This document shows positions 5,591-53,239 of a stretch of DNA of 64,000 nucleotides, piece by piece; within the stretch, counting starts at the first letter, position 1; each line of letters begins with the position of its first letter. The stretch is taken from positions 1 to 64,000 of the forward strand of contig CACZVM010000003.1 in NCBI GenBank assembly GCA_902784585.1, read 5' to 3'. A program made the position numbers and the translations under genes. The stretch is from an uncultured Bacteroidales bacterium (lineage in GTDB: Bacteria > Bacteroidota > Bacteroidia > Bacteroidales > Paludibacteraceae). Below the pieces are notes generated by a model. That model did no database searches. It saw nothing but the letters and a program-made list of their open reading frames with translations, and was not told the DNA's origin.

Positions 5591-5981
5591 ATTGGTGATT
5601 GGTGATTGGTGATTTATTTAGAAAAAAACATATAAAACCCCTCCGTCAGCAATAACGCTTGGCAGCGTCCATGAGTATTGGCTCTATATGCCTACTTACA
5701 AATACATTTGACATAGTCATCCAGACCCAATCCTCACATCCATAGGATGTAATTGCTGCCGAAGGACATAAACACAAATTAATGTTTATTGCGCTAAAGC
5801 GCGTTTATTGCGGCAAGCCGCAGTTTAAAAGTTTATTATTAATTTTGAAGATTTGCTTTGCAAATAATCGTGCCCTTTAGGGCTAAGAATTTTTAATTCT
5901 TAATTGTGAATTTTGAAATAATCGTGCCCTTTAGGGCTAAGAATTCTTAATTGTGAATTTTGAATTGTGAATTGTGAATTC
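5591..5981. repeat. Repeat-rich spacer: heptads, mini-hairpins and a 30-bp direct repeat
   Basis: No gene is seen here. 5591-5615 carries three GGTGATT heptads. A string of short-loop hairpins follows: GCGC-TAAA-GCGC (5791-5802), TGCGGC-AA-GCCGCA (5809-5822), ATTTGC-TTT-GCAAAT (5851-5865) and GCCCT-TT-AGGGC (5872-5883). A 30-bp segment (5862-5891) including the last hairpin is repeated exactly at 5916-5945. From 5946 to the end of the DUF5020 gene the sequence is GAATTGT-like heptads. Confidence 0.9.
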
Positions 5982-6767
5982 TCAATCGAACGTCCATTTC
6001 ACGCCCAGGCAGGGGTTGCACATGAAGCCGCGCCCGGGGGCTCCGCCGGTGAAGTTGTAGCTGAACTCAATCTCTGTGCCTACATGCAGGTTCGGACATT
6101 TGAACCATTGCCCCACGTTGTACCATAGCTGCGGTTCGCTGATCAGCACCCACGACTGTTCTCCGCCGAACTTCTGACCCCATATGTCCAGAAAACCGGA
6201 GAAACGCAGACCCTTGGCCGTGCAGAAATCATCGCAGCCCCAGACAAAGGTGAATTGCAGCGGGACGTTGTTCTTCAGCCGGTTGCCGTCGTCCAGGATA
6301 TACTTGTAGAGCAACTCGAGGTTGAAGATATTCTTATAGTCCGAGGTGTGCAGACAGTAGTTCAGTCCCACCAGTGCCGCATGATTGATGCCGTAGCCGC
6401 GTGTGCCGGTGCTGTCGGAGTAGAGACCCAGACCACCGTTGTATTCCACCTGCACACTCAGGTCCTTGGCCTTCGTCTTGCCCCAGAAATTCAGGCATCG
6501 TGCTATCTCCATATACGCCATGAACGGCGTGTTCTTCGGGTCGTTGGGATGGATGTTGTAGTCGAAATCGACGAACGCGAACGTGTTGCCCCAGGCGTCG
6601 GGGTAGAAGAGCTCCAGCGTCGTCGTCATGCGGTTGCTACGCTGGTTGTCGCAGGCGGTACCCATACTGCCGAAATCATAGTAGAGCTGCAGGTTGGTGC
6701 CGGCACTCGCGCTCATTGCGCATACCGTGACCATCAATCCCATAATATACTTTTTTCCGTAACCCAT
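5982..6767 (-). CDS. DUF5020 family outer-membrane protein (Tsx-like barrel)
   Basis: A 261-residue protein with a signal peptide (MGLMVTVCAMSASA; an inner ATG at 6743 is a possible alternative start) and alternating aromatic strands typical of a small beta-barrel, ending in Phe-Asp. LQLYYDFG near the N terminus and LELFYPDAWGNTFAFVDFDY are family-like. DUF5020 members resemble the nucleoside channel Tsx, so transport of nucleosides or similar small molecules across the outer membrane is plausible. It lies 19 bp after the S1/P1 nuclease gene on the same strand, with three GGTGAAA heptads between them, so nuclease and channel are probably made together. The Tsx link is inferred from fold-like pattern. 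Confidence 0.8.
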   Translation of the reverse strand: MGYGKKYIMGLMVTVCAMSASAGTNLQLYYDFGSMGTACDNQRSNRMTTTLELFYPDAWGNTFAFVDFDYNIHPNDPKNTPFMAYMEIARCLNFWGKTKAKDLSVQVEYNGGLGLYSDSTGTRGYGINHAALVGLNYCLHTSDYKNIFNLELLYKYILDDGNRLKNNVPLQFTFVWGCDDFCTAKGLRFSGFLDIWGQKFGGEQSWVLISEPQLWYNVGQWFKCPNLHVGTEIEFSYNFTGGAPGRGFMCNPCLGVKWTFD

Positions 6768-6786
6768 AACCTTTCACCTTTCACCT
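6768..6786 (-). repeat. Intercistronic heptad repeat (GGTGAAA)
   Basis: Almost three GGTGAAA units on the minus strand fill the whole gap between the nuclease stop and the DUF5020 start codon. Confidence 0.85.
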
Positions 6787-7596
6787 TTATTTATATATTT
6801 GGTTCAGCAGTTTGGCCAGACGAATGCCGGCGATATAGAGTTGACGCTCCATGGGCGTATGCCAGCGGTAGATATAGTGCCACGTGTTGCCGTCCCAGGT
6901 TTGCTGGTAGGCATAGATGGCCTCTGTGAAATGATAGTTCCGGAGCAGCAACTCCGTGTCGCTCATGGCGAGAATAGCCTGCTTCTCGGCCGCATAGGTC
7001 TTCTCCAGCATCGCTGCGTACTCGGTGTAGCTATAGCCCTGCGAATCAATCAGTTTCTCGTCCCAGACGGCATGCAACTTGGTGTCCTGGCCGTGCCATT
7101 TCATCTTCACGCGGTTGCCTCCCAGGTCGTCCATATGTGCCGTGTGCATCGGGCAGTAACGGTCGCCGCTCAGGTGGATGACAAAGCGCAAGTTGTGCTC
7201 TTCGTTCCGGGCCCTGCGGGTGGGGTCGCTCAGTATGGCCGTCAGGCTGTCCAAGGCGCGGAAGAGGTTGCCGCCCTCCTTCGGATAATGGATCAGCGCA
7301 TCGGCCACCACCGCGTCGCTCAGGCCGCCGTCGAAGTCCTGGAAATGCCAGTCGTAGCTCTGCGGATAGATGGTGTCGCTCTTGATCTCGTCAGCCCAAT
7401 TGGCACGGTAGATCATGCCCTGCGAACCCATCACATGGTCGATGTGCTTGCGCACTTTCTTGTTCAGATGATCATAGGCGATCTTGGCAATGATACGATG
7501 ACCCTCCTGCCCCCACGCCAAACAGGGTAGGGAATGCAGAGTGGTACAAGAGATGGCAATAGCAATCAGAAGCGTTCTGTTCAGAAGGTGTCTCAT
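6787..7596 (-). CDS. Secreted S1/P1 family nuclease
   Basis: A 269-residue protein starting at the ATG at 7596 (signal peptide about 1-27, cleaved before WGQEGH). S1/P1 enzymes are zinc-dependent nucleases of single-stranded DNA and RNA with 3'-nucleotidase activity. The trinuclear Zn ligands are recognisable: mature N-terminal Trp and His in WGQEGH, Asp in NWADEI, His-Asp in HLSGD, His in PMHT, and the His and Asp in LHAVWDEKL. Length matches the family. The upstream frame to 7629 crosses the promoter, so the longer start is unlikely. It is transcribed divergently from thrS and followed by the DUF5020 channel gene, which suggests nucleic-acid scavenging in the periplasm or outside the cell. 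Confidence 0.92.
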   Translation of the reverse strand: MRHLLNRTLLIAIAISCTTLHSLPCLAWGQEGHRIIAKIAYDHLNKKVRKHIDHVMGSQGMIYRANWADEIKSDTIYPQSYDWHFQDFDGGLSDAVVADALIHYPKEGGNLFRALDSLTAILSDPTRRARNEEHNLRFVIHLSGDRYCPMHTAHMDDLGGNRVKMKWHGQDTKLHAVWDEKLIDSQGYSYTEYAAMLEKTYAAEKQAILAMSDTELLLRNYHFTEAIYAYQQTWDGNTWHYIYRWHTPMERQLYIAGIRLAKLLNQIYK

Positions 7597-7626
7597 GATA
7601 TAGAGGTGTTTATTCGTTTTCGGCTG

Positions 7627-7658
7627 CAAATTTACTACAAAAATTGCACATGCGCAAG
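7627..7658 (-). promoter_or_regulatory. Promoter of the nuclease-DUF5020 operon
   Basis: On the minus strand CTTG (7658-7655) and TAAATTTG (7634-7627) are 20 nt apart. The -33 region reads TTGCGCATGTGCAA, an imperfect palindrome. Confidence 0.75.
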
Positions 7659-7703
7659 TTTTTTTGTGTTTTTTGTTTCGTTTTACGAAAAGTCGTCAGA
7701 AAA

Positions 7704-7850: not shown

Positions 7851-7862
7851 TTGACCTAAAAG

Positions 7863-7894
7863 TTTGCAAATTTGAAAAATTTGTAGTACCTTTG
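7863..7894 (+). promoter_or_regulatory. Promoter of thrS
   Basis: TTTG at 7863-7866 and TACCTTTG at 7887-7894 with a 20-nt spacer. The ~70-nt leader carries a small GGGGC/GCCCC hairpin near 7911-7928; no T-box is seen. Confidence 0.8.
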
Positions 7895-9912: not shown

Positions 9913-9925
9913 TAATCAGGTAGAA

Positions 9926-15409: not shown

Positions 15410-16213
15410 TTACGGTCGTCTGAACTCCGCCAGAATAATGGCGGTAGCAATAGAAACGTTGAGGCTTTCGATAACTTCGGAGGCCTCTTTGTTTATGCCG
15501 TCTTGTCCGGAAATACCTTTTGGGGAATAGGATGGGATGAGGACGGGGTGGGTGATGAGGCGGCGTACAGGCTCGGAAATGCCGTTTCCCTCATTGCCCA
15601 TGATGATGACGGCCGATGACTTGGCATCAGCAGGCTTGAGCACCTCATACATATTCCGGCCGTCGAGTAGGGTGCCGTAGATCTTAAGGTCTGACTGCTG
15701 ACGGCTGAGGGCTGATAGCCATTCCACTAAGTTTACATAGTGGATACGCACCCGGGCCAGCGCACCCATCGTAGCCTGTACTACCTTGGGGTTGTAGCAG
15801 TCGGCTGTGTCAGGCGAGCAGAAAATGTCGCGCACGCCGAACCAGTCGCAGGTGCGGATTATAGTGCCCAGGTTTCCAGGGTCTTGTATGCCGTCCAGCG
15901 CAAGCGTTAGATTATTGGTGATTGGTGATTGGTGAATGGTGATTGTTTTCTTAAAAACCGCTAAGACTCCCTGCGGCGTACGCAGTCCGCTCATCTGTTC
16001 TATCTCCGTAGGAGAGGCCGTGTATAGCTTCGTTGGAGCATCAGGGAGTGTATCGCTCTTCGAGCTTATGATGAGCATTTCCGGTTGGAAACCTCTGCAT
16101 AACTCCTCTATGCACTTTTCGCCCTCGGCTACGAAAAGACCCAATTCGTCACGGTACTTCTTCTGCTGCAAACTTTTTACAAGTTTGATCTGCGCTTTGC
16201 TGATTTTCTCCAT
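15410..16213 (-). CDS. TrmH/SpoU family RNA 2'-O-methyltransferase
   Basis: A 267-residue SpoU methyltransferase that methylates a ribose in tRNA or rRNA with SAM. The start at MEKISKAQIK is chosen because the longer frame crosses the promoter. N-terminal substrate-binding region (1-90), then the knotted SPOUT fold: DGIQDPGNLGTIIRTCDWFG (motif 1), MGNEGNGIS (motif 2) and ESLNVSIATAIILAEFRR (motif 3). Two oddities: about residues 90-100 (IHQSPITN) are encoded by GGTGATT heptad repeats, and a ~15-residue stretch rich in Gly/Lys/Glu precedes motif 3 where homologues I recall are shorter. The pairing with a divergent TamL gene is familiar in Bacteroidales. Exact target unknown. Confidence 0.9.
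   Translation of the reverse strand: MEKISKAQIKLVKSLQQKKYRDELGLFVAEGEKCIEELCRGFQPEMLIISSKSDTLPDAPTKLYTASPTEIEQMSGLRTPQGVLAVFKKTITIHQSPITNNLTLALDGIQDPGNLGTIIRTCDWFGVRDIFCSPDTADCYNPKVVQATMGALARVRIHYVNLVEWLSALSRQQSDLKIYGTLLDGRNMYEVLKPADAKSSAVIIMGNEGNGISEPVRRLITHPVLIPSYSPKGISGQDGINKEASEVIESLNVSIATAIILAEFRRP
15914..15944 (-). repeat. Heptad repeat inside the RNA methyltransferase gene
   Basis: Four GGTGATT/GGTGAAT units, the same as those in the spacer at 5591, lie in frame in the linker between the N-terminal and SPOUT domains. The number of bases gained keeps the frame. Confidence 0.85.
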
Positions 16214-16233
16214 ATTATTTTCAAAATCCGGCA

Positions 16234-16281
16234 CAAAAGTACTAAAAAATTTTGACATGTCAAAATATTTTTGTAATTTTG
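16234..16281. promoter_or_regulatory. Divergent promoter pair sharing a 16-bp palindrome
   Basis: The perfect palindrome TTTTGACATGTCAAAA (16250-16265) supplies both -33 boxes. Rightward: TTTG 16251-16254 with TAATTTTG 16274-16281. Leftward: TTTG 16264-16261 with TACTTTTG 16241-16234. Both spacers are 19 nt. Polymerases on the two promoters should compete, and a dimeric regulator could bind here. Confidence 0.8.
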
Positions 16282-16291: not shown

Positions 16292-18505
16292 ATGTTACGC
16301 TTGTTACGTACATATGGAAAGAAAGGGTTGGTAATTGGTAATTTGTTATTGCTGATTGCCTTGGTGTTGGCGTCTTGTAGCACGACCAAATATGTTCCCG
16401 AGGGACAGTACTTGTTGAACAAGGCAAAGGTCAAATGCGTGGACGATAAGTCGGTGCCTACCGGTGAGTTGCGCGGTTACCTCCGTCAGACACAGAACAC
16501 CGAGATTCTTGGTTTCTGGAAGTTGCAACTGCAGATCTACAACACCGCCCCTGCCGACACTACCACCAAATCCAAGAAACGCCTGGCGCGTAATGCGCAT
16601 AAGATGGGTGAAGCACCTGTCATCTACGACGAGGAGTTGACGCGTATCAGTATGCAGCAACTTCAGCAGCAGATGAATAACATGGGTTATTTCCATGCAG
16701 AGGTGGACACCGTGAAGCGTTATAAGAAGCGCAAGAAGGTGGAGGTCACCTATCTGGTGAAGGCGCATCAGGTCTATACGCTGCGCGACTACCGGGTGGA
16801 CATAGCCGACGAGACCATTCGTCGCATCGCCACCGAAGAGAGCTGCGTGGTCAAACGCGGTGAACACTTCTCCACCGCTATGCTCGACGAGGAGCGCGCA
16901 CGTATCACTACGCGGATGCGTAATCTCGGATATTTCTATTTTGAGAAGTCGATGCTGGAATATACTGCCGATAGCGCGTTGGGTACCCACGAGGTGGATA
17001 TCCGGTTGCATATGGCGCCGTATATCTCTCATCTAGACTCAGCAGAGCAGAAACGCCTGCAGACGCGCTATTATATTCGCAACGTGGACTTCAAGTTGGA
17101 CAAACCCTTCTTGCGTAATCGTACCTTGCGTCGCGCCTGTCGTATTCAGGAGGGCAAACAATTCGCCGAGTGGCGTGAGGAGCGTACCTACGCGCGCATG
17201 AATGCCTTGCCTCCTGTCAAGTATGTGGATATCTCCTATACGTTGGTGAACGACTCGCTTGCCGGCGACTCATTGCTTGATTGTACCATTACTATATCCC
17301 GCGGACGGCTCAACTCTGTCTCTGCCGAAGTGGAAGGTACCTACAGCGCAGGCGACTGGGGAATAGCCGGCGGCGTGCATTATAGCAACAAGAATATCTT
17401 CCGCGGCGCAGAAATCCTCTCTCTGGGCGGACGTGCTTCCTATGAATGGCGTGCTAACGGCGGTCGGGCTATCGAGGCCAAGGCCGAAGCCGGATTGACC
17501 TTCCCGTCGAATATCAAGGTCAATATAGCTTACAACTACCAGAAGCGGCCGGACGAATATCTGCGTACGATCGCCAATGCGGGACTGGCGTATACGATCT
17601 TTCCCCATTCCGGCAGTCGCTGGACGCATTATTTCAACTTGATAGATATCAGTTATATCTACGTACCCTGGATGACGGATGAGTTTAAACATAATTTCAT
17701 CGATCGTTCATCTGTTTTGCGTTCCAGCTACGAAGACCATTTCATTGTCGATTGGAGTTATACAGCCAGCTATACTACCTATAGTCAGCGTCATCCCAAT
17801 CGCTCTTATCTGCAATTCGCCCTGCGCGTGGAGACAGCCGGCAATGCACTGTATGCTTTGTCCAAAGTCGCTTCACTCCCGCAGGACGAGAACAACAATT
17901 ATATGCTATGGCGTATTCCTTTTGCGCAATATGCCAAGGGAGATATCAACTTCACGTATCATGGCATTCCCGTGCCGAAGCACCATTTGGTGGGTCACAT
18001 AGGCTTGGGCGTGGCGATGCCTTATCTCAATTCGGATGTGATGCCTTTTGAGAAGCGTTACTTCGGTGGCGGCTCCAACGGTGTGCGCGGCTGGCAGGCT
18101 CGTACGCTTGGCCCCGGTATATTCAACAGGCAGGGAACGGCGCTGGTCTATGACCTGCGGGCAGGAGACATCCATCTGGAAATGAACTTGGAATATCGGT
18201 TTAAGGTGCTTAGTTTCCTAGAACTGGCGGCGTTCCTCGATGCGGGAAATATTTGGACGATCAAGGATTATGACGATCAGAAGGGCGGCTTGTTCCGCTT
18301 CGGTGAGTTCTATAAGCAAATAGCGTGGAGTTACGGAGCAGGTATCCGCTTCGACCTGTCGTTCCTCATCTTCCGCATCGATCTGGGTGTCAAGCTCCAT
18401 GACCCAGGTCGCATAGAGGAGGGTACGCAATGGCGCACCAAGCAGAACGGACTGAGTTGGAGCAAAGACTGTACACTCCATTTTGCCATAGGATACCCCT
18501 TCTAA
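16292..18505 (+). CDS. tamL: TamL: lipoprotein of the BamA/TamA (Omp85) family
   Basis: A 737-residue Omp85 protein that inserts or translocates outer-membrane proteins. It has a lipoprotein signal with lipobox VLASC (Cys29), which distinguishes TamL of Bacteroidota from TamA. POTRA-like repeats follow (about 40-330), then a 16-strand barrel, with the conserved FGGGSNGVRGWQAR motif (about 590-603) and a terminal Phe. Length and order fit the family. Part of the signal peptide (LVIGN) is encoded by GGTAATT heptads. It starts ~10 nt after the promoter and leads the run to mnmA. Confidence 0.93.
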   Translation: MLRLLRTYGKKGLVIGNLLLLIALVLASCSTTKYVPEGQYLLNKAKVKCVDDKSVPTGELRGYLRQTQNTEILGFWKLQLQIYNTAPADTTTKSKKRLARNAHKMGEAPVIYDEELTRISMQQLQQQMNNMGYFHAEVDTVKRYKKRKKVEVTYLVKAHQVYTLRDYRVDIADETIRRIATEESCVVKRGEHFSTAMLDEERARITTRMRNLGYFYFEKSMLEYTADSALGTHEVDIRLHMAPYISHLDSAEQKRLQTRYYIRNVDFKLDKPFLRNRTLRRACRIQEGKQFAEWREERTYARMNALPPVKYVDISYTLVNDSLAGDSLLDCTITISRGRLNSVSAEVEGTYSAGDWGIAGGVHYSNKNIFRGAEILSLGGRASYEWRANGGRAIEAKAEAGLTFPSNIKVNIAYNYQKRPDEYLRTIANAGLAYTIFPHSGSRWTHYFNLIDISYIYVPWMTDEFKHNFIDRSSVLRSSYEDHFIVDWSYTASYTTYSQRHPNRSYLQFALRVETAGNALYALSKVASLPQDENNNYMLWRIPFAQYAKGDINFTYHGIPVPKHHLVGHIGLGVAMPYLNSDVMPFEKRYFGGGSNGVRGWQARTLGPGIFNRQGTALVYDLRAGDIHLEMNLEYRFKVLSFLELAAFLDAGNIWTIKDYDDQKGGLFRFGEFYKQIAWSYGAGIRFDLSFLIFRIDLGVKLHDPGRIEEGTQWRTKQNGLSWSKDCTLHFAIGYPF

Positions 18506-18588
18506 AATCAAGATTTTAGATTTATGATTTATGATTTAAGATTTAAGATTGCAAATTTAAGATTTATGATTTTAGATTTTTGATTTAT
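18506..18588 (+). repeat. Intercistronic heptad repeat block (GATTTAT/GATTTAA)
   Basis: About eleven degenerate GATTTAN units fill the gap between tamL and rnhB and run into the ATG of rnhB (last unit GATTTATG). Confidence 0.9.
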
Positions 18589-20983: not shown

Positions 20984-21004
20984 TCTGAATGCTGAATGCT
21001 GAAA
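20984..21004 (+). repeat. Heptad repeat (TGAATGC) spanning the lpxK start codon
   Basis: Nearly three TGAATGC units sit between the sppA stop and lpxK. They create two ATGs seven bases apart in different frames; only the second (20996) opens lpxK. Confidence 0.8.
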
Positions 21005-23868: not shown

Positions 23869-23932
23869 GGTGAAAAGTGAAAGGTGAAAGATGAAAGAAG
23901 AATCTCAAATCTTAAATCCTAAATCACAAATG
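23867..23932 (+). repeat. Intercistronic heptad block upstream of mnmA
   Basis: Two heptad kinds abut: four to five GTGAAAG/GTGAAAA units (23867-23897), then about five AAATCYT/AAATCAC units ending at the mnmA ATG. A frame through the second block would add MKEESQILNPKSQ to MnmA; that is likely an artefact of the repeat. Confidence 0.88.
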
Positions 23933-32110: not shown

Positions 32111-32992
32111 TTAAATATTCGATTTTCTATTTACTGGTCGAACGCGGTAACCTGCTTTGCGCAGTTGTTCGATCAGTCCTTTCTCTCCGCCCAGATAGAT
32201 GGTGTTGAGCGTGATGAACGCACCGCCTTCTGCCAGATAGGGTTGTAGACGTTTCACCCATTGCTCGTTGCGGCGGCAATAGACCTGGTAGTCGGAATAG
32301 GAGAGGGTGGAGCTGTTGTTAGGGCCTTCCACCAGATAGGTGATGTCGTTGAGTCGGCCGTTGCGATACATCTCCAGAAGCATGCGTTCTTGCTTCACTT
32401 CGTTCTCGGGGTATTCCACTATTTTCTTCAGCTCTTTGCATTGCCAGTGAAACGGTTCACGATCGAAGAGCATATACATCGTCTCGCCTACATTGTCCAG
32501 TCCCACTACGGGGATGTTCTTCTCTGCAGCCACCAACTCGAAGAAATTTTCCATCGATCGCTGCTCGTTGTAGCCCAACCATTGCTTCATCAGTTCAGCT
32601 CGAAACATCTCCGTCAGATACGAAGGCTTCATGCGGCTTAATTGATCCATACCAATGCCCAAATGGGCGCGAAGTGTGTTGTCAATATATTTATATTCCT
32701 CGTCGCTATAATAATTGCGCAATCGTATTGAATCTGGCAGTACGGCCGCTTGGCGAAGTGCAGCGATGGCTTCGTAGTCTTGCATGGCAAATTCAGTGAC
32801 CACGCGTTGGCTGCGACCGAAGCATTTGAACACATTGGGGATGGTGTCCAGAAAGGTCATATCCACTAGGCGGTTGGTAGCCAACAGATACGATTTTTTG
32901 CTCGCGCCGTTTCCGCTGATCTCCCAGAGCAATTGGGCTCGGAGCGGCAGCATGCAAATCAGACAAACGATCAATATACTTGTTTTTTTCAT
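32111..32992 (-). CDS. TraB/GumN-like secreted protein with a degraded active site
   Basis: A 293-residue protein with a signal peptide (about 1-19). The overall pattern follows TraB/GumN (putative metalloproteases related to Tiki): LLWEISGNGASKKSYLL at the start and GGEKGLIEQLRKAGYRV at the end. However, the first signature GTxH reads ATNR, and the usual GAxHL before the C-terminal Gly reads NTIYL, so both hallmark His are missing. Catalysis of the family type is therefore doubtful. Its ATG overlaps the stop of the TPR gene (ATGA). Confidence 0.75.
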   Translation of the reverse strand: MKKTSILIVCLICMLPLRAQLLWEISGNGASKKSYLLATNRLVDMTFLDTIPNVFKCFGRSQRVVTEFAMQDYEAIAALRQAAVLPDSIRLRNYYSDEEYKYIDNTLRAHLGIGMDQLSRMKPSYLTEMFRAELMKQWLGYNEQRSMENFFELVAAEKNIPVVGLDNVGETMYMLFDREPFHWQCKELKKIVEYPENEVKQERMLLEMYRNGRLNDITYLVEGPNNSSTLSYSDYQVYCRRNEQWVKRLQPYLAEGGAFITLNTIYLGGEKGLIEQLRKAGYRVRPVNRKSNI

Positions 32993-34947: not shown

Positions 34948-34972
34948 TTTTCACCTTTCACTTTTCATCTTA
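34940..34972 (-). repeat. Heptad repeat (GTGAAAA/GTGAAAG) giving the GTG start of the TPR gene
   Basis: Four to five units between the PBP1A stop and the TPR gene. The final GTGAAAG supplies the start codon and second codon. Confidence 0.85.
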
Positions 34973-38307: not shown

Positions 38308-39527
38308 TAATCCTTTTTCCAAAACGTTGTGCCTACGAGTTCGTCTGGCATATATTGTTGTTCGGTCCAGTGACCGGGATAGTCGTGCGGATACTTGTAT
38401 CCGTCGGCGTACCCAAGCTCTTTCATCAAACTCGTCGGGGCGTTTCTCAGGTGCAACGGCACGGGTAGGTTACCGGTCTCGCGCACCTTGGCCAGCGCTG
38501 CGTCTATCGCCAGATAGGCGGAGTTGTCTTTCTTGCACGTAGCCAGGTAGATGGTGGTTTCCGCTAGTGGGATACGTCCTTCGGGCCAGCCGATCTTATT
38601 CACTACATCAAAACAGGTGTTGGCCAATAGCATCGCATTCGGGTTGGCGAGTCCTATATCTTCGCTGGCCAAGATCACCAGTCGCCTGGCGATGAACTTC
38701 GGATCTTCCCCTCCTTCTATCATGCGGGCCAACCAGTAGATAGCTGCTTGCGGATCACTGCCGCGTACTGACTTGATGAAGGCGGAGATAATGTCGTAGT
38801 GCATTTCGCCGTCCTTGTCATAAGCCAGCGGGTTCTGCTGCAGCTGCATCGTCACCGTGGTGTTGTCTATCGTTTTGGCTCCACTGTTAGCCACCAGTTC
38901 GATGATATTCAGTAACTTTCGGGCATCGCCACCGCTATAGCGCATCAGTGCTTCGGTCTCTTTTATCTGCAGTCCCATTCCTCGAATGGTCTCGTCTTGC
39001 GTCAGCGCACGCTGCAGTAACTCTTGCAGGTCGGATTTGTCCAACGACTTTAGCACATAGACCTGGCATCGGCTCAACAGCGGCGTGATCACCTCAAAAC
39101 TCGGGTTCTCGGTAGTTGCACCTATCAGTGTCACCGTACCGTCTTCCACTGCGCCCAATAGACTGTCTTGCTGACTCTTGCTGAAACGATGGATTTCGTC
39201 AATGAAGAGGATAGGTGAGCGTCCGTCAGCCGGTGCGAAAAGTCCGCTGTTGATGCTGGCGGTGCGTTTGGCTTTGTCGATCACGTCTCTCACTTCTTTT
39301 ACACCACTCGTCACGGCACTCAGCGTGTAGAACGGGCGCTGCAACTGATGGGCGATGATACGTGCCAACGTTGTCTTGCCTACACCCGGAGGCCCCCATA
39401 GGATAAAACTCGACAGGTTGCCGCTCTCGATCATTTGGCGCAGTATAGCACCCGGTCCCACCAGGTGGCGTTGACCTATATATTCATCCAGCGTCTTCGG
39501 ACGCATGCGTTCGGCTAATGGGAGCAT
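38307..39527 (-). CDS. rarA: Replication-associated recombination protein A (RarA/MgsA AAA+ ATPase)
   Basis: A 406-residue clamp-loader-like ATPase acting at stalled forks. The chosen start MLPLAERMRPKTLDEYIGQ is the family's usual beginning; it lies within the 3' end of recN (13-nt overlap), and the 33 extra upstream residues do not look like the family. Walker [10 protein letters not shown], Walker B ILFIDEIHRFSK, sensor GATTENPSFEV and Arg finger region LLSRCQVYVL are present. It is coupled with recN and hemW by overlaps. Confidence 0.95.
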   Translation of the reverse strand: MLPLAERMRPKTLDEYIGQRHLVGPGAILRQMIESGNLSSFILWGPPGVGKTTLARIIAHQLQRPFYTLSAVTSGVKEVRDVIDKAKRTASINSGLFAPADGRSPILFIDEIHRFSKSQQDSLLGAVEDGTVTLIGATTENPSFEVITPLLSRCQVYVLKSLDKSDLQELLQRALTQDETIRGMGLQIKETEALMRYSGGDARKLLNIIELVANSGAKTIDNTTVTMQLQQNPLAYDKDGEMHYDIISAFIKSVRGSDPQAAIYWLARMIEGGEDPKFIARRLVILASEDIGLANPNAMLLANTCFDVVNKIGWPEGRIPLAETTIYLATCKKDNSAYLAIDAALAKVRETGNLPVPLHLRNAPTSLMKELGYADGYKYPHDYPGHWTEQQYMPDELVGTTFWKKD

Positions 39528-41092
39528 AGCAGTTGTTTGGCATTGGCGATAGCTTCGGGTGAGGGCGTGCGGCCACTCAGCATTGTAGCTACCTCGGTGA
39601 TACGTTCTTGGTCGCTCAGACGGCATATATGCGTCTCTGTGTGCGTCTGCGTGTCGGCCTTGTAGACCTTATAGTGATGCTCACCTTGTGCCGCAATCTG
39701 CGGCAAATGGGTGATGGCGATGATCTGGCGGTGTTGTGCCATTTGGCGCATGATGGTGGCCATTTGGGTCGCTATCTCACCGCTCACGCCCGTGTCTATC
39801 TCGTCAAAGATGATGGTGGGGAGCCCCTTGGTGCTGGCTATCAGTGCCTTGACGCAGAGCATCAGTCGGCTGATTTCACCGCCGGAAGCCACCTCACTCA
39901 CGGCCCTCAGACTTTGGTTGAGGTTGGCAGCAAAGAGCAGTTCCACCTCGTCGCATCCGCGGGGAGTGAAATCCGGCGTGGGGTGGAGGGGTAGCTCTAC
40001 TTTGGCATGGGCAACACCCAGTTGTTGCAAACCAGAGATGAGGCGTTGACAGATAGGAGAAAGCACAGCCTGACGACTATTGGTCAGTACAGCGGCAGCT
40101 TGCTGCAGCGCGGTGCGTTCCGCCGCCAACTGTTTCTCTGCCTGCTCGATGTCGAAATCAAAACTGTCTAAACGGTTCACCTGTTCGGCCAACTCATCGC
40201 GCATAGCAATCAGTTCGCTGATGTTCTCCGCATTGAATTTTCTGATCAATTCCTCCAGTTGACTGATGCGCTCTTCGGTCCATGCCAGTCGCTCGGGGTC
40301 TAACTCTACGCGGTGAAGCATCCGTTCCGCCTCTTCAGCGATGTCCTGCAATTCAATCCGCGCGCTGTCCAGTCGTTCCTGCAGTGCGGGTGCTGCCTCG
40401 TCCAGCCGACAGGCACGAAGTGCATCCAGTGCACTGCCTTGTTCACCATTCAGTGTCTCTATAGCCGTTTGCAGTGCCGTACGGATCTCCTCTGCATGAC
40501 TCAACTGGTACTGTTCCGCCTCCAGTGTCTCTAGTTCACCATCCTGCAGCGCAGCCTCGTCCAGTAGCTTATATCGGTACTGGATATAATCGGCATCCTG
40601 ACGGCTCTTTTTCGCCAGGCTTTGCAGACGTTGCAGTTCTTCTGCCGCGGCTGTGTATTTCTCATATTGCGCGGCATAAGCGGCTTGCTGCTGTTCGTTG
40701 CGGGCGATGGCATCGATGATGTCCAGTTGGAAGTCTGCATTCTCAATAAGCAGGTTGGCATGTTGGGAATGGATGTCAATCAGTCGGTTGCTCAGTGCCT
40801 TCAGTTCCTGCAGCGTCACCAGTCCGTCGTCCACGAACGAACGACTCTTGCCGTTGCTATATAGTTCGCGGCGGATGATACGATCGTCAAACGTCGCCTC
40901 GATGATACATCGCTCTTCGCCGTCACTGATGGCCTTGCTGTCGGCACGGGCACCAAGCATCAGGGCTAATGCACCCAGTATAATGGTCTTGCCTGCACCG
41001 GTCTCACCGGTCATGACGGAGAAACCTGACTCAAAATCGATGTCGAGGTGGCGTATCAACGCGTAGTTCTCTATGTGTAAATGCTTCAGCAT
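39515..41092 (-). CDS. recN: DNA repair protein RecN
   Basis: A 525-residue SMC-like protein for double-strand break repair. It has MLKHLHIENYALIRHLDIDF, Walker A TGETGAGKT, a coiled-coil arm (about 150-330) and the C-terminal ABC part with EVASGGEISRLMLCVKAL and Walker B PTIIFDEIDTGVSG, followed by THLPQIAAQGEHHYKV. ATG at 41092 is used rather than the TTG one codon earlier. It follows DUF4835 by about 40 bp, and heptad-like sequence lies in that gap. Confidence 0.95.
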   Translation of the reverse strand: MLKHLHIENYALIRHLDIDFESGFSVMTGETGAGKTIILGALALMLGARADSKAISDGEERCIIEATFDDRIIRRELYSNGKSRSFVDDGLVTLQELKALSNRLIDIHSQHANLLIENADFQLDIIDAIARNEQQQAAYAAQYEKYTAAAEELQRLQSLAKKSRQDADYIQYRYKLLDEAALQDGELETLEAEQYQLSHAEEIRTALQTAIETLNGEQGSALDALRACRLDEAAPALQERLDSARIELQDIAEEAERMLHRVELDPERLAWTEERISQLEELIRKFNAENISELIAMRDELAEQVNRLDSFDFDIEQAEKQLAAERTALQQAAAVLTNSRQAVLSPICQRLISGLQQLGVAHAKVELPLHPTPDFTPRGCDEVELLFAANLNQSLRAVSEVASGGEISRLMLCVKALIASTKGLPTIIFDEIDTGVSGEIATQMATIMRQMAQHRQIIAITHLPQIAAQGEHHYKVYKADTQTHTETHICRLSDQERITEVATMLSGRTPSPEAIANAKQLLCSH

Positions 41093-41132
41093 CAAATCAT
41101 AAATCTAAAAATCACCAATAACCAATACAAAA

Positions 41133-42038
41133 TCAATTGATTTTGTCATATGTCTCCTGTCGTGTGGGGTCGATGTCCATCAGTACATCGTACACGGTTT
41201 TCTTTTCCTGTGCGGTTCCTTTCTTGAAGATATCCACTATTTCCTCATTTTTGGCATCCAGGAAGGTGCTGACCAGATAGGTGGCCGGCCGGGCACGATA
41301 GACTTCGCGCAGCACAGGCAGTCCTTCGGCGATGCGGGCACGGGCATTTGTCATGTTGGCCGTCATTTCATCCAGCCCGAGACGATGGTAGGTATAGTAG
41401 AACTCACGGTATTTGCGGAAAGCTTCGTCCATCAGGTTATTGGTCAGTGCATAGCGATTGCGGTTGTCCTCAAACGCGCGCCATCCTTTCTGCTCCAGGT
41501 TGTCCATCGTGGCCGACTGGCATGCATTGACAATCAGTTCGCATTGCTCGAAGAACGGACTGCCGCCCAGACGCTGGTAGGTGTCCTGGTCGTGACCGAT
41601 GATCAGGTAGCAATAGAAAGCCAGCATCGCTGTCAGGTTGGTAGTGAACTGATTTTGCTGATATTCAATGCGATCGTATTCCTCATAGGTGAAGTTGAAT
41701 GCACCGTCCTGCAGGTTGAGGATAGGAGTGGAGTAACTGGTGCCATAGACGGGACGACGGCTTTGCAGCGTCATCGAACAGTTGTACATGTTCTCTACGG
41801 CACTATTCACGACGATCAGCAACGAACATTCTATCTTCTCGTGTTCAGCATAGGTCATGTTGGTCCAGCGGTTGTTGTTCATATAATCTTCTATCGCCGC
41901 CTTCATGGTCTCGAACACCTGTTTGTTCGTACCTTCTATCTTGTCGGTGTTGATGCTGACGCTACAGCGCAGTTCTTGTGCGCCGAGCCCGATCACGCTC
42001 ATCAAACAGAGGTTTAGTATGATTAAGATTTTTCTCAT
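41133..42038 (-). CDS. DUF4835 family protein
   Basis: A 301-residue secreted protein (signal peptide about 1-20) with ELRCSVSINTDKIEGTNKQVF, the start pattern of DUF4835, and later QRLGGSPFFEQ and FDAKNEE-like segments. Members lie beside recN in Bacteroidota, as here. I have a vague memory that the family has been connected with type IX secretion, but the sequence does not establish that. Start overlaps the DUF4831 stop (ATGA). Confidence 0.87.
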   Translation of the reverse strand: MRKILIILNLCLMSVIGLGAQELRCSVSINTDKIEGTNKQVFETMKAAIEDYMNNNRWTNMTYAEHEKIECSLLIVVNSAVENMYNCSMTLQSRRPVYGTSYSTPILNLQDGAFNFTYEEYDRIEYQQNQFTTNLTAMLAFYCYLIIGHDQDTYQRLGGSPFFEQCELIVNACQSATMDNLEQKGWRAFEDNRNRYALTNNLMDEAFRKYREFYYTYHRLGLDEMTANMTNARARIAEGLPVLREVYRARPATYLVSTFLDAKNEEIVDIFKKGTAQEKKTVYDVLMDIDPTRQETYDKIN

Positions 42039-43090
42039 TTGCAGATAGATTGAATGTTTCCTGTAGATACGTCTATTCGGATCACGGGTAGTTTCTGGCC
42101 TGTGAACAGATCACGTGTCAGCGGCACGTCGATACCCAGTTGGGCGATAGGAAGGCTTTGCTCGCCTAACGTGCGCTCACGATAAGTGACTGTTACGTCG
42201 GTGCTACCCGGCAGGTTGTAGATCAGTTGCGAAGGCTGCGGGGCATTCTTTGCTTTCTTGCCTTTTGCCTGTTCGTTAGAAGCGGCATACACTTGACGGT
42301 GATGGGTCATATTCACGATGATCGAATCGGCTTCCAGGTTCTCCGACTCGGTAAAACCGTTCTCTTCTGAGAAATACAGCAGTATGTGCTCTTGGCTCTC
42401 TTGACCCGGCATCAGACAGATCTCTTTTTGCTCTCTGCGGGTAGTTGTGCTACCTACGAAGAGCGACACCAGTGCTTTCTCTTCAGCTCGGAGTTGGTCG
42501 AGCATCACCTGCATTGCCTGTCCGTCCGTCGGCGCATGCTCCACTTCGCCACTCAGCAGATACATCCTGCTCTCGCGAATACGGTATATCTGTTTGGCTA
42601 CGGCCTCGGCACGGGCTTCTTCTGTCGGCAGGTCCAACTGTTCGTCGGTCAGCGGCATCGCTTGCGGCACAGTGGTCACAGTCGGCTGTTCAGCCTTCGG
42701 TTGGTCTTTCTTGTCTGTCACTACCGGACGCAGGTTGTATCCCTCCAGCAACCCTTTATGGTTGATGCTGAGCAACTGGGCATCTATTCCGCTCTCAGCC
42801 ACGATCTTGCGTACTCGCGTCGTGTCGGCTTCGGTACGCGAACCGATGTGCACGTTCTCGAGCTGGTAGATCACGCGATTATCCTTCACGGCATCGCTTA
42901 CTCCCAGCATCGACTCGGCATAACGGCTGAATCGACCGGCCTCACGCACCTCTACGGTGTAGTCGAACAGCAGAATGATCTTGTTCTGCGGGGCGAAATA
43001 GATCATGGCCAACTCGCCCTCATCCACATGTTGCGCCATTCCGGCACTCATCATCATTGCTCCTAAGAGCAACACAAAAATTCGTTTCAT
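42035..43090 (-). CDS. DUF4831 family protein
   Basis: A 351-residue secreted protein. The start at MKRIFVLLLGAMMMSAGMAQ gives a signal peptide; the frame reaching to 43168 lies in aroE and the heptad repeat. The mature protein has DYTVEVREAGRFSRYAESML and QTLRA-like beta segments usual for DUF4831, of unknown function. It is coupled to DUF4835 by an ATGA overlap and lies 28 bp after aroE. Confidence 0.87.
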   Translation of the reverse strand: MKRIFVLLLGAMMMSAGMAQHVDEGELAMIYFAPQNKIILLFDYTVEVREAGRFSRYAESMLGVSDAVKDNRVIYQLENVHIGSRTEADTTRVRKIVAESGIDAQLLSINHKGLLEGYNLRPVVTDKKDQPKAEQPTVTTVPQAMPLTDEQLDLPTEEARAEAVAKQIYRIRESRMYLLSGEVEHAPTDGQAMQVMLDQLRAEEKALVSLFVGSTTTRREQKEICLMPGQESQEHILLYFSEENGFTESENLEADSIIVNMTHHRQVYAASNEQAKGKKAKNAPQPSQLIYNLPGSTDVTVTYRERTLGEQSLPIAQLGIDVPLTRDLFTGQKLPVIRIDVSTGNIQSICK

Positions 43091-43126
43091 ATCTAAATCT
43101 AAAATCCTAAATCTTAAATTACAAAT
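43091..43126 (-). repeat. Heptad repeat (GATTTAG-like) between aroE and the DUF4831 gene
   Basis: About five GATTTAN units on the minus strand span the aroE stop codon and end at the DUF4831 ATG; same kind as the block before rnhB. Confidence 0.85.
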
Positions 43127-43844
43127 GTCCGTTTGACCAAATCTTCCACGCTGCCTTTGCCTGACCAATCAACATCTGCATGCCGTTCTCTGTCTGTGCT
43201 CCCTGTGCGGCTCCTCTGCGCAGAAACTCCGTCTCTTCGGGATTATATACGCAGTCATAGAGTAGGTGCCGCGGTTTGATCTCGTTGTAGGGGATAGGCG
43301 GACAACTGTCTATGTCGGGATACATACCCAGAGGCGTGCAGTTGACGATGATCGGGTGGGCAGCGATGGCTCCCGAACCGGGCAATGCGTCGTAAGCCCG
43401 TATAGGCCCGCAGTTGTGTCGGCTTACCATTGTAGACTGAATCCCCAACTCACCCAGCGCCGCACAGACGGCTTTCGCAACACCACCGGTACCCAACACC
43501 AGTGCGCGATCGTCGTACGGACGCTTCAGCGGACGCATCGATTCGAGAAAACCGATATAGTCGGTGTTGTATCCCACGCCTCTGTACACCACGTTCACAG
43601 CCCCTATGGCTTCTGCTGACGGATCTAATCCTCTCAAATAGGGGATGATCGCCTCCTTGTACGGATGAGTCACATTGAACCCGTCCAGCCGTCCCATCAA
43701 TTCCTTCACGCCTTCACTCGTCAACTCCTTCAGTTCATACAACGCGTACTCCGCGTCAATCTTTTCTTGCGCGAAGAAGTCGTTGAAGTATTTCGCCGAA
43801 AGCGAGTGCTCAAGTGGGTTTCCTATGATGCCGTAGTGACGCAT
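43119..43844 (-). CDS. aroE: Shikimate dehydrogenase
   Basis: A 241-residue NADPH-dependent reductase of 3-dehydroshikimate in the chorismate pathway. N-terminal GIIGNPLEHSLSAKYFN binds shikimate, NVTHPYKEA has the catalytic Lys, AIGAVNVV and YNTDYIGF give the second catalytic Asp, LGTGGVAKAV is the nucleotide loop and VNCTPLGM a conserved turn. It is slightly short (about 270 is usual). The first 22 nt overlap the end of tilS. Confidence 0.94.
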   Translation of the reverse strand: MRHYGIIGNPLEHSLSAKYFNDFFAQEKIDAEYALYELKELTSEGVKELMGRLDGFNVTHPYKEAIIPYLRGLDPSAEAIGAVNVVYRGVGYNTDYIGFLESMRPLKRPYDDRALVLGTGGVAKAVCAALGELGIQSTMVSRHNCGPIRAYDALPGSGAIAAHPIIVNCTPLGMYPDIDSCPPIPYNEIKPRHLLYDCVYNPEETEFLRRGAAQGAQTENGMQMLIGQAKAAWKIWSNGHL

Positions 43845-47918: not shown

Positions 47919-48062
47919 ACCTGACACTAACGAGACATTATCGAGACATTATCGAGAGTGCACCCCCTCCGAGGGATGGCACTCTTTTCGTAAAATTCTT
48001 TCCGTTTGGCAAAAAATAGCACTTTTATTTGCACATGTCCGAAAAATGTTGTACCTTTGCAG
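47919..48062 (+). repeat. Copy 2 of the ~110-nt hairpin-plus-promoter element, with 11-bp repeats
   Basis: ACCTGACAC is followed by two CGAGACATTAT units (47931-47952), a hairpin AGAGTGC/GCACTCT (47955-47985), TTCCGTTTGGC and the promoter TTTGCACATGTCCGAAA. Parts and order match 3706-3843. There is no upstream gene on this strand, so the hairpin is not needed as a terminator. Confidence 0.75.
48028..48059 (+). promoter_or_regulatory. Promoter of the small-protein/ompH/wzi run
   Basis: TTTGCACATGTC from 48028 and TACCTTTG at 48052-48059, spacer 20 nt, followed by CAGCG. One of the best matches to the extended box. Confidence 0.85.
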
Positions 48063-48950: not shown

Positions 48951-50822
48951 ATGAAAATCGAGAAACGCTTGGGTCTTAAATGGCAGGGCTTGCTGGTCCT
49001 TTCATTTTTCATTTTTCATTTTTCATTTTCCTACGCCCAGCGTATTCCCGAGGCCATCGAGTACACCGAGATATACGACTATCTGGAGGAACTGACTACC
49101 GATGGCATCATCCGCAGTAATGCGGCTATCAAGCCCTACACGCGCGACCAGATAGCTCGGATGCTCCGCGAGGCGCAGAGTAGGGACTCCCTGCTCAGCC
49201 GCAGGCAGAAGGACGATCTGCAGTTCTACCTGCAGAACTATGCACTCGAGTGCGACACGCTGCCCGTCTACTACAGCTACGGCCATCGTCACGTCACACA
49301 GTGGATCACGTCGGTCAGCAACCTCTCGCTGGCTGACCCCTCGCTGCATATTCTTACTAAAGACAAAGTCTTTAAGATGCGCATCCGGCCCATCCTCGGC
49401 ATGGATCTGTATGCCAACAAACGCGGACTGCTACAGCACCGCTGGTATGGCATCGACATGCAGATGGACATTGCCCACCACCTCTCTATTTGGGGTTCTA
49501 TCCGTGACAATAGTTGGGGCGGACAAGGTGTCAACGGCTCGAAGATCAGCTACGGATGGGTGAATAACGGCAGCGGACTGTCGCCTGTACCGGCACTGAA
49601 CAACATCCCCGGCTCGCAGTACAAAGAGGCGAACTATGGAGGCGACTTCTCCGACTCGCGCGGTGGTATTTCGCTCTACACATGGTGGGGTAGCATCGGC
49701 GTACAGCGCGAACGCATACAATGGGGCGACGCACAGCATTGCTCCAACATCCTCTCGGCGCATAATCCAGCCGTTCCAATGCTGACGATCCAACTGACGC
49801 CATGCCGATGGTTCCAGTTTGATTATTTCCATGCCTGGCTGCCCAGTAATGTTGTAGATTCTACGTATTATTACGTAGAGCAGGAACAAGAGGGCGTCAC
49901 GGGACGAGAATATCGTCCGGCCAACAAGTTCATGGCGGCGAACATGTTCACCTTCCTGCCTTGCAAATACGTCCAGTTCTCGTTCGGTAACTCCATCGTC
50001 TATGCGGAGCGTAATGTGCAGGCACAATATTTCATCCCCATCGCGTTCTTCAAGTCGCTCGACCACCTCTTCACCAAGGGAATCAACTCGGAGAACCAGA
50101 ACTCGCAAGTGTTCGCCAGCATTACTGTGCGGCCTACCGACCATCTGCGTCTCTATGGTTCGTTCTTCCTGGATGAATTCAAGTTCGCCCGTCTCAAACC
50201 CTCCAATCCCGAGCATAATCCTGTGTCCTACCTGGTGGGTTTCAACTGGAGCGGTTGGCCTGTACGCGGACTGGCCCTACGCGGAGAGTTCATGCGTGCC
50301 TATATCGCTTGTTATACGCACTCGATCAAGGTACTCGACTACACTTCCAACAGCTACAACATGGGCCATTATATGGGGGATAACTCACAATCGATCTTCT
50401 TGCAACTCAGTTACCGTCCCGTACGTGGCTTGCGTCTGATGCTCGACTACACCCGCGACACCAAATATCGCTCGTACGGCTATTTCCGCGACTATATCGC
50501 CGGTTCGCGCGTGGAGAACCCCATCATCGCGCAGAAACCCTTTAGCGGGAAGATCTGGTGCAACGATATCATCAACTTCCGTGCTGTCTATGAGGTATTC
50601 AACAACTGCTATGCACACGTGGACATCACCTATAACAACGCACGCGCCTATGCACCAACTTCGCCTCGCATAGATGGCGAAGACCGCGGATGGAATGCTG
50701 ACGGCACCAGTCGCAACTTGGCGGGCGCAGAATTACAATCGTATTATCTCGACAAATATACACCCGCATACTTCCAAGGTCGCACCCTGACCTTCACCTG
50801 CGGACTATCCTTCGGATTCTAA
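48951..50822 (+). CDS. Wzi-like capsule assembly outer-membrane protein
   Basis: A 623-residue outer-membrane barrel of the Caps_assemb_Wzi family. Wzi anchors or organises capsule at the cell surface; members in Bacteroidota are often outside capsule loci, as here. Signal peptide about 1-29, then a periplasmic part (IPEAIEYTEIYDYLEEL) and a barrel with many aromatic strands, WGSIRDNSWGGQ and a final Phe. The signal-peptide core is encoded by four CATTTTT-like heptads. An ATG at 48927 (MKMKGIRF) is the alternative start. Confidence 0.87.
   Translation: MKIEKRLGLKWQGLLVLSFFIFHFSFSYAQRIPEAIEYTEIYDYLEELTTDGIIRSNAAIKPYTRDQIARMLREAQSRDSLLSRRQKDDLQFYLQNYALECDTLPVYYSYGHRHVTQWITSVSNLSLADPSLHILTKDKVFKMRIRPILGMDLYANKRGLLQHRWYGIDMQMDIAHHLSIWGSIRDNSWGGQGVNGSKISYGWVNNGSGLSPVPALNNIPGSQYKEANYGGDFSDSRGGISLYTWWGSIGVQRERIQWGDAQHCSNILSAHNPAVPMLTIQLTPCRWFQFDYFHAWLPSNVVDSTYYYVEQEQEGVTGREYRPANKFMAANMFTFLPCKYVQFSFGNSIVYAERNVQAQYFIPIAFFKSLDHLFTKGINSENQNSQVFASITVRPTDHLRLYGSFFLDEFKFARLKPSNPEHNPVSYLVGFNWSGWPVRGLALRGEFMRAYIACYTHSIKVLDYTSNSYNMGHYMGDNSQSIFLQLSYRPVRGLRLMLDYTRDTKYRSYGYFRDYIAGSRVENPIIAQKPFSGKIWCNDIINFRAVYEVFNNCYAHVDITYNNARAYAPTSPRIDGEDRGWNADGTSRNLAGAELQSYYLDKYTPAYFQGRTLTFTCGLSFGF
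49003..49030 (+). repeat. Heptad repeat (CATTTTT) inside the Wzi-like signal peptide
   Basis: Three perfect CATTTTT units and a fourth, CATTTTC, encode the hydrophobic core of the signal peptide. A gain or loss of one 7-bp unit would shift the reading frame. Confidence 0.9.
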
Positions 50823-50839
50823 AAATCAACCCTAGCATA

Positions 50840-52273: not shown

Positions 52274-52276
52274 ACA

Positions 52277-52304
52277 AAATAAGCGGCCGAAAGGTCGCTT
52301 ATTT
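52277..52304. terminator. Convergent terminator
   Basis: AAATAAGCG-GCC/GGT-CGCTTATTT hairpin with a GAAA loop between the secreted protein and the glycosyltransferase gene; serves both strands. Confidence 0.92.
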
Positions 52305-52315
52305 GTTTCGTTGGC

Positions 52316-53203
52316 TTATTTGTTTCTCATTCGATGATAGTCGCGCCGTGCTTCTATCACGGCTTTGGCGCTGCCTGTTTTGCCCTGCAGCAAGAAGAAA
52401 CAACAGGCTGCATAGTCCAAGAAGAAACGAAGGAACAGTACTCCCCATGGGTGCTGTCGGTTCTTGTAGATCATCAGCAGGTTGTTGCGGAAGTTCAGAT
52501 AGGTCTTGCGGGGATTGTCGTAACTGAGAGCACCGCCACCCAAGTGGAACACCGTGCTCTGAGGTACACAGGCCAACTTCCAACCGGCACGTCTCATGCG
52601 CCAGCAAAGATCTATCTCCTCCATGTGCGCAAAGAACGATGCGTCCAATCCGCCTAAGTCCTTATACACTGACGTGCGTACGCACATACATGCACCTGTG
52701 GTCCAATCCACCTCCACGATGCTGTCGTACTGACCATTATCCACCTCTACGCGTCCCCAGCGGCGGCCACGGCAGTAGGGATAGCCTAACCAACTCAGAT
52801 AACCGCCTGCGGCACCGGCGTGCTCGAAGCGCTCACGCTGACGCCAACTGCGTATCTTAGGTTGCACGGCTGCTATCTCCGGGTGCGCATCCATATAGTC
52901 GAGCAGGGTGGTCAACCAGCCTTCCGTCACTTCTACATCACTGTTGAGCAGCACTGTATAGTCTGCCTCCGTCTGTGCGATGGCGCGGTTGTATCCTTCC
53001 GCAAACCCGTAGTTCTTGTCCAGTACGAGGGTCTTGACTTTCGGAAACTCTGCTTTCAGCACCGCAAGACTATCGTCTGTACTGCCGTTGTCGGCTACGA
53101 TCACCTCTGCGCCCGGCAGCGCAGTATATTTCACCACCGACGGCAAGTAGCGACGCAACATCTCTGCGCCATTCCAGTTTAATATAATAACACTACACTT
53201 CAT
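52316..53203 (-). CDS. Glycosyltransferase family 2 (rhamnosyltransferase-like)
   Basis: A 295-residue GT-A enzyme starting at MKCSVIILNWNG; six further codons upstream are repeat-encoded. It has DNGSTDDS for the nucleotide site, VLLNSDVEV as the metal-binding motif, GACMCVRTSVY and EIDLCWRMRRAGW, the pattern of WcaA/rhamnosyltransferase relatives. The C-terminal 45 residues include a hydrophobic stretch that may rest on the membrane. It follows the LpxL-like gene with its stop in a heptad repeat, which suggests a role in envelope glycan synthesis. Confidence 0.9.
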   Translation of the reverse strand: MKCSVIILNWNGAEMLRRYLPSVVKYTALPGAEVIVADNGSTDDSLAVLKAEFPKVKTLVLDKNYGFAEGYNRAIAQTEADYTVLLNSDVEVTEGWLTTLLDYMDAHPEIAAVQPKIRSWRQRERFEHAGAAGGYLSWLGYPYCRGRRWGRVEVDNGQYDSIVEVDWTTGACMCVRTSVYKDLGGLDASFFAHMEEIDLCWRMRRAGWKLACVPQSTVFHLGGGALSYDNPRKTYLNFRNNLLMIYKNRQHPWGVLFLRFFLDYAACCFFLLQGKTGSAKAVIEARRDYHRMRNK

Positions 53204-53206
53204 CCT

Positions 53207-53239
53207 TTCACCAATTACCAATTACCAATTACCATTAAC
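53207..53239 (-). repeat. Heptad repeat (GGTAATT) between the acyltransferase and glycosyltransferase genes
   Basis: Four units on the minus strand. They encode the last residues of the acyltransferase (NGNW), provide its TAA stop and end just before the glycosyltransferase ATG. Confidence 0.88.

Follow-up and report, generated by a model that had tools for sequence, protein, structure and literature searches.

The window analysed here is a 64,000-nt stretch, bases 1-64000 of contig CACZVM010000003.1, from the 1.63-Mb draft genome (79% complete) of an uncultured Bacteroidales bacterium, and it carries a family of short tandem arrays built from 7-nt units (heptads), which are the subject of this work. 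The nearest named relatives that we found are uncultured Paludibacteraceae/Bacteroidales, many of them from rumen or gut samples. A preliminary description of the window had listed such repeats at a series of sites, mostly between the genes of operons, and had regarded them either as elements that set spacing or translational coupling or as a slippage product that is tolerated in intercistronic gaps.

Most of the listed sites are indeed operon gaps. On the plus strand, an AAGATTT array of about 11 copies (18511-18586) fills the gap between a bamA-like gene and rnhB, and a CTGAATG array (20985-21003) is located at the sppA-lpxK junction, where the gap is 12 nt long yet contains an array and the unit matches the lpxK start ATGCTGAA. 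A GTGAAAR array (23870-23902) stands immediately after the stop of an ABC transporter gene and before mnmA, followed by an AATCYYA array (23901-23925) that is either upstream of MnmA or encodes its N terminus (start uncertain). On the minus strand, a GGTGAAA array (6769-6788) fills the gap between an S1/P1-nuclease-like gene (6787-7521) and a DUF5020 gene (5982-6767), a GTGAAAR array (34932-34967) lies between the minus-strand genes 34970-37237 and 32989-34947, a GATTTAN array (43093-43119) between the genes 43119-43844 and 42035-43057, and a weak heptad-like stretch (41093-41135), which alone is not significant, between the genes 41133-42002 and 39515-41092. Three arrays are not placed between operon genes. 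A GGTGATT array (5591-5614, plus strand) occupies a convergent gap, where it follows the stop codon of the DUF4301 gene 4212-5564 and a terminator-like hairpin of that gene. A GGTAATT array (53210-53234, minus strand) spans the stop codon and 3' end of a lipid A acyltransferase-like gene (53222-54013), and a GAATTNT array (5942-5980, plus strand) ends where the minus-strand DUF5020 gene has its stop codon. A similar but weaker stretch (5888-5917) and a further array (4036-4064) had not been listed before.

Three listed sites lie inside genes, so that these are not intercistronic either. In the minus-strand gene of a SpoU-family rRNA methylase (15410-16258), an AATCACC array (15914-15942, minus strand) reads openly as ITIHQSPITN, and a second, previously unlisted array in the same gene (15691-15715, minus strand) reads as SALSRQQS. 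A GGTAATT array (16328-16351, plus strand) belongs to the N-terminal coding part, signal-peptide-like by eye, of the BamA-like gene 16292-18505, and a TTTCATT array (49000-49029, plus strand) to the N-terminal coding part of gene 48951-50822.

The period of 7 nt is not an accident of composition. For a shuffle test, 14 stretches covering every listed site (that at 23867 split in two) were cut by hand and subjected to 2000 single-base shuffles each, with the best of the lags 4-12 as statistic; period 7 was the best in all 14, with p <= 0.003 in 13 of them and p = 0.125 in the weak stretch 41093-41135. Tandem Repeats Finder reported period-7 arrays at nearly every listed coordinate. Exact lag-identity runs of at least 12 nt, counted in 464 kb of the window's genome, numbered 45 at period 7, 32 and 20 at its harmonics 14 and 21, 9 at period 11 and between 0 and 5 at each of the remaining periods from 2 to 24, while a single order-1 Markov shuffle of the same 464 kb yielded 0 such runs at every period. 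Together, the two kinds of shuffle rule out chance and an AT-rich composition as the source of the period.

With mismatches allowed, 858,693 bases of the window's genome contained 157 period-7 arrays with a median length of 31 nt (range 18-104); the other periods from 4 to 15, harmonic 14 excepted, gave 1-30 arrays each. The 157 arrays fall into 45 unit classes, the five commonest of which account for 77 of them, confirming the earlier impression that units vary among sites and the period is fixed. When harmonic 14 is disregarded, period 7 was also the most frequent one in the related loci taken together, as well as in every one of three genomes of which >= 140 kb were sampled. The window's genome and its close relatives are rich in these arrays. 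Thus, tandem 7-nt units occur beyond chance and genome-wide, as expected for dispersed heptanucleotide simple sequence repeats. Period 11 is the second commonest in the window's genome when harmonic 14 is set aside (30 arrays in 859 kb), and within the window period-11 arrays were seen at 3934-3969, 47923-47957 and 59602-59648. Two further kinds of repeat were noticed. A 42-bp tandem repeat with two half units of 20-22 bp lies at 58894-58995, upstream of the minus-strand gene 56395-58779, and the gap 5800-5980 is a composite in which small hairpin-like words (GCGCTAAAGCGC, GTGCCCTTTAGGGC and others) alternate with heptads, a 54-bp unit of one hairpin and one heptad stretch being present there in about two copies (5857-5971).

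The window's genome carries 18.3 arrays per 100 kb, and a similar density was found in 44 related loci with an SppA identity >= 73% (20.9 per 100 kb; four of the 44 had no array). The density was 10.1 per 100 kb in eight loci at 50-59% SppA identity, and 6.9 in 28 loci of Prevotella and other Bacteroidales. Samples from 19 other genera of the family gave 4.2, those from 20 other families of the order 1.1 and those from 20 genomes elsewhere in the phylum 0.8 arrays per 100 kb. All outside samples were single stretches of at most 20 kb per genome (22 kb for related loci), some of them very short. One locus of another Bacteroidales family (L171) contained five period-10 arrays within one 20-kb stretch.

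To assign arrays to genes and gaps we used the array midpoint and gene starts from a small purpose-written gene caller, so that start distances carry an error that stop distances do not. Unless relatives are named, the following counts refer to the window's genome. Codirectional gaps held 87 arrays in 87.4 kb (1.0 per kb) and called genes 58 in 734 kb (0.079 per kb), showing that the arrays are over-represented in non-coding DNA. Convergent gaps held 8 arrays in 9.1 kb, and divergent gaps only 2 in 25.7 kb, compared with 25.6 expected from the codirectional rate. This depletion was weaker or absent in two relatives (3 arrays in 7.6 kb and 2 in 2.8 kb of divergent gap), and we therefore make no general claim from it. 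The two remaining arrays were located at edges without a neighbouring gene and were dropped from the analysis of starts and stops, leaving 155.

Short gaps are particularly affected: codirectional gaps no longer than 100 nt held 45 arrays in 10.0 kb, and an array was present in 19/106 and 26/103 (18-25%) of those of 14-100 nt. This frequency would suit an intercistronic regulatory element that sets spacing, couples translation or binds RNA in a phylum making little use of Shine-Dalgarno sequences, and units such as GGTGAAA and GGTGATT may overlap the sequence complementary to the usual 3' end of 16S rRNA. Against such a role, the arrays are not anchored at starts beyond chance. In 35 of the 87 codirectional arrays the end lies no farther than 10 nt from a start, which equals the random mean of 35, whereas in 55 the beginning lies equally close to the upstream stop, with a random mean of 35 and a maximum of 48 in 2000 trials. 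Stops were likewise preferred over starts in the two relatives (21 vs 7 of 41 arrays and 6 vs 1 of 11, counted without a random control). The association with start codons noted previously thus does not exceed what the geometry of the gaps produces, although in short gaps the array often occupies the entire space from stop to start, just as had been noticed. Since identical words are also found deep within genes, we regard a regulatory function as improbable, and the comparison of orthologous junctions below adds to this view.

A further property of the units is their stop content. A stop triplet on one strand was present in the units of 151 of the 155 arrays, compared with a background of 55%; the proportion was lower in the two relatives (60/73 and 18/24), and therefore no general claim is made. 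In the 87 gap arrays, the stop triplet was found on the sense strand only in 37 and on the antisense strand only in 17 (p = 0.009). Among the 58 arrays in genes, 5 lie within 30 nt of the 3' end and 53 farther away, and for the latter the picture is reversed: the stop triplet is antisense only in 42, sense only in 5, on both strands in 3 and absent in 3. The sense strand in genes is thus mostly the stop-poor one, and it encodes peptides such as NHQSPIT and IHNSQFT. Because 7 is no multiple of 3, a heptad with TGA or TAA just after a gene puts a stop into each of the three frames in a space of about 21 nt, and the arrays might be three-frame stops or insulators at the RNA level whose orientation in gaps is under selection. 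Both orientation biases and the clustering at stop codons would fit such a role. In the two relatives, however, the gap bias is small (17 vs 11 and 5 vs 4) and the coding bias absent (9 vs 9 and 3 vs 4). In addition, an array close to a gene end brings its own stop, and both the stop anchoring and the stop-bearing sense strand in gaps could arise in this way without any function. We give this explanation very little credence.

Arrays within genes were followed through related species, in which the SpoU methylase gene contained 24, mnmA 10 and the BamA-like gene 4. For SpoU and MnmA, in-frame coding arrays recur at the same loops with units that differ among species, and the loops are often equally long with and without heptads. 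In MnmA loop 2, the usual 11 residues are extended to 18-20 in three heptad-bearing species and to 36 in a fourth. Since several heptad loops are as long as their non-heptad sister loops, we do not claim block insertion on the basis of coding length. Judged from the sequence, an array seems to encode the MnmA N terminus in several species. Heptads are not the only insertions at these positions: MnmA loop 2 also takes another, non-heptad family of in-frame insertions, with peptides like TPPLRGGERGEV or TPPFREGNGVG (L076, L079, L081, L085, L088, L103, L105, L110 and L123), the DNA of which looks palindromic in L076 and L110. In SpoU loop 1 of L084, L086, L089, L092 and L093, heptad-coded peptides are replaced by repeating YSE/DSE peptides, which suggests a 9-nt unit (the DNA was checked for some of them only).

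A unit that is no multiple of three, found within many reading frames and also in N-terminal coding parts such as those at 16328 and 49000 of the window, raises the question of contingency loci, in which gain and loss of units would switch genes on and off by frameshifting. The arrays are short (median 31 nt) and often imperfect, though, and the genes that can be checked (SpoU methylase and MnmA) are housekeeping genes, which makes this idea highly improbable.

The turnover of the arrays can be followed since the operon bamA-rnhB-sppA-lpxK-abc-mnmA is retained in many related loci, with 40-80 loci matching each gene. Our survey of five kinds of junction comprised 229 cases including the window; the array test covered the 127 gaps of at least 14 nt. 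The 102 shorter gaps are not all free of arrays, that of L099 at bamA-rnhB, for example, looking heptad-like. Significant tandem repeats (p <= 0.01) were present in 71 of the 127 gaps, with period 7 in 59 of the 71. The bamA-rnhB gap ranges from -1 to 121 nt across 44 species and is shorter than 14 nt in 15 of them; 21 of the 44 have significant arrays, 14 of these with period 7, and the units are unlike each other (AAGATTT, CTGAATA, ACAATTC, GTCGAAA, GGTGAAA, GGTTACG and others). Orthologous junctions thus conserve neither gap size nor unit, which argues against a regulatory element; a conserved role in spacing or coupling is rejected on these junctions. Other repeats can occupy gaps as well: L093, L095, L096 and L115 have palindromic repeats rich in CTAG (CCTAGGATCCTAG-like), which in some cases follow a stop codon.

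The comparison of 13 pairs of loci that are 83-95% identical gave 94 array instances, of which two without flanks were dropped; instances were counted from both partners and some loci occur in several pairs, so that the events are not independent. Of the 92 instances, 30 were shared with the same unit, 34 were present in one partner only and 28 were sites with differing units. Where both partners had an array (53 instances), same-strand unit similarity was 7/7 in 22, 6 in 6 and 2-5 in 25, and this last class resembles random pairs of units. Exact 7-nt changes within arrays were seen between the species L076 and L105. At the position equivalent to 15914-15942 of the window, the nearest compared relative (L072) has an array in reversed orientation. 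At the sppA-lpxK junction of L084 (near 7149), the array and an altered LpxK N terminus resemble those of L086 and not those of the closest relative L093, and this double resemblance makes recombination with a related species likely there.

The unit words themselves are re-used. For 191 arrays from three genomes (after thinning; pairs at least 1 kb apart), two arrays of one genome had the identical unit class in 4.7% of pairs and two arrays of different genomes in 1.5%, compared with 0.14% for random gap heptads. Label permutation of these arrays revealed a genome-specific unit dialect (p = 0.0005), which was weak in samples of about 20 kb (p = 0.002). Local sequence contributes too: the units of 29% of 58 junction arrays matched the neighbouring start region in at least 6 of 7 positions, compared with 13% after permutation (p = 0.003; the arrays come from related species and are not fully independent), and the match on the stop side was not significant (17% vs 13%). 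An example is CTGAATG or CTGAATA in front of genes beginning with ATGCTGAA. We read the start-region match as local seeding, and a minority of arrays seem to grow from local seeds. In part, this one result speaks for the link to starts that had been suspected, starts probably being a source of units for some junction arrays.

The explanation that we favour, and consider reasonably probable, is that these are dispersed heptanucleotide repeats with a high turnover, amplified in this lineage, which slippage or template switching creates and remodels and which persist where they are tolerated; of the two possibilities raised at the outset, the tolerated slippage product is the better one. According to this explanation, new arrays would arise repeatedly in one rumen/gut Bacteroidales lineage. 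Replication slippage or template switching is the most likely mechanism, and one array might possibly serve as template for another. Arrays would then gain and lose 7-nt units and would often be replaced or lost between relatives that are 5-17% apart, surviving behind stops, in operon gaps, in convergent gaps and in frame in protein loops or N termini. The period, the placement, the turnover, the in-frame coding copies and the re-use of words are direct observations, whereas we infer the slippage or template-switching step and also that tolerance, and not function, decides where arrays are found. As to the cause of the instability, loss of MutS or RecJ is unsupported, because both genes, the only repair genes looked for, are present in the draft genome of the window.

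Several observations sit uneasily with this explanation. Independent slippage alone predicts neither the almost universal stop triplets in the units of the window's genome, which are less frequent in the two relatives, nor that 4.7% of within-genome pairs have identical units. MnmA loop 2 is longer by 27 nt in two species, which is no whole number of 7-nt units, and relatives differ in many places by one block of 15-60 nt and not by 7-nt steps. Turnover is uneven, L078 and L110 (94.3% identical) sharing 6 of 6 instances and L084 and L093 (93.7% identical) 0 of 3, and the roughly 20-fold array excess over distant members of the phylum is left unexplained. Some of these observations would be accommodated if each genome had its own repertoire of 7-nt words from which arrays were written as blocks, instead of every array growing from a local seed, be it by recombination or template switching between arrays, which overlaps with the favoured explanation, or by some templated process. 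Unit re-use far above chance that differs among species, the block-like differences and the reversed array in the SpoU gene of L072 speak for copied words; the significant minority of locally seeded junction arrays and the 7-nt steps speak against them, and the re-use may partly reflect a composition bias, for which random gap heptads are the only control. A reverse transcriptase as writer of the arrays is unsupported, since no RVT_1 match was found in the draft genome (79% complete) and only 8 of the 37 genomes of the genus, the window's genome among the 37, have one, leaving 29 without. We regard copying from a repertoire as a less probable alternative. Its most far-reaching form, in which a templated process would write species-specific 7-nt words as blocks, in either orientation and wherever tolerated, and rewrite loops and junctions within 5-17% divergence, we think unlikely.

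With its roughly 18-21 arrays per 100 kb, dozens of units and one period, this lineage is a natural system for catching the birth step of such repeats, and births or replacements that are visible at 5-17% divergence could help to explain the bacterial preference for 7-nt units. Frame-breaking heptads have become part of conserved enzymes such as the SpoU methylase and MnmA. Array-bearing gaps should not be taken for regulatory elements.

The likeness in form to known heptanucleotide repeats that had been pointed out for the window is supported by the comparison. The STRR of cyanobacteria are heptanucleotide repeats, and like them the arrays comprise several heptanucleotide words per genome; the likeness is one of form. 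Short repeats inserted in frame into proteins are also known from Rickettsia, whose palindromic elements are small and do not consist of tandem heptads. For Calothrix, three heptanucleotides are given in the text on Xanthomonas and Nostoc (PMC4692102). Heptamer repeats are listed among the commonest short bacterial satellite families, an example being (GATAGRA)n of Chloroflexus, a single word that recurs in 22 satellites of the same species (PMC6749651). In the open-licence literature searched, no report on Prevotella or Bacteroidetes heptads was found.

According to the account of Mrazek et al. (2007) given in PMC4679880, heptanucleotides are the most abundant long simple sequence repeats in most genomes, slippage was proposed as their origin with 7 nt perhaps being the length that the DNA polymerase holds, and units of a multiple of three are the likeliest in coding regions. 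The last expectation differs from our observation of 7-nt arrays within many reading frames. The same article (MacGregor 2015, PMC4679880) describes direct TAACTGA repeats in marine Beggiatoaceae and five Bacteroidetes, with one favoured word located mostly just upstream of starts; a translational role has been suggested for those of the Beggiatoaceae. The 7-nt unit, the short intergenic arrays and the occurrence in Bacteroidetes are shared with our arrays. Neither the 859 kb nor any of 52 related loci contained tandem TAACTGA in two or more exact copies, and unlike the placement described for TAACTGA, our arrays are located at stops and are not above random at starts.

The closest parallel is provided by the dispersed heptad arrays GGGAATC of Xanthomonas and GGGGA(T/C)T of Nostoc. 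In the passages of Rehm et al. (2015, PMC4692102) on their distribution, these favour gaps between aligned genes, are scarce in coding regions and divergent gaps and lie within 50 bp of stops on the sense strand, with some intragenic copies; all of this, that is aligned-gene gaps, divergent scarcity, sense-strand stop proximity and intragenic copies, is mirrored in the window's genome. Arrays of prominent length are reported at different genes in two Xanthomonas species. There are also differences. Each of those genomes is described with one type of G-rich, quadruplex-forming word, whereas 45 unit classes without G-tracts and with frequent change of unit were found here, and repeat-bearing regions are stated to have changed less than controls, in contrast to the turnover seen here. 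Tandem GGGAATC or GGGGAYT occurred 0 times in the sequence that we searched, and a quadruplex function is unsupported, the quadruplex motif matching 3 of the 157 arrays. What distinguishes the arrays described here is the combination of many G-tract-free words at one period per genome, frequent in-frame copies and re-occupation of sites; they are of the same kind as the heptad repeats of Xanthomonas and Nostoc, of which they represent a variant.

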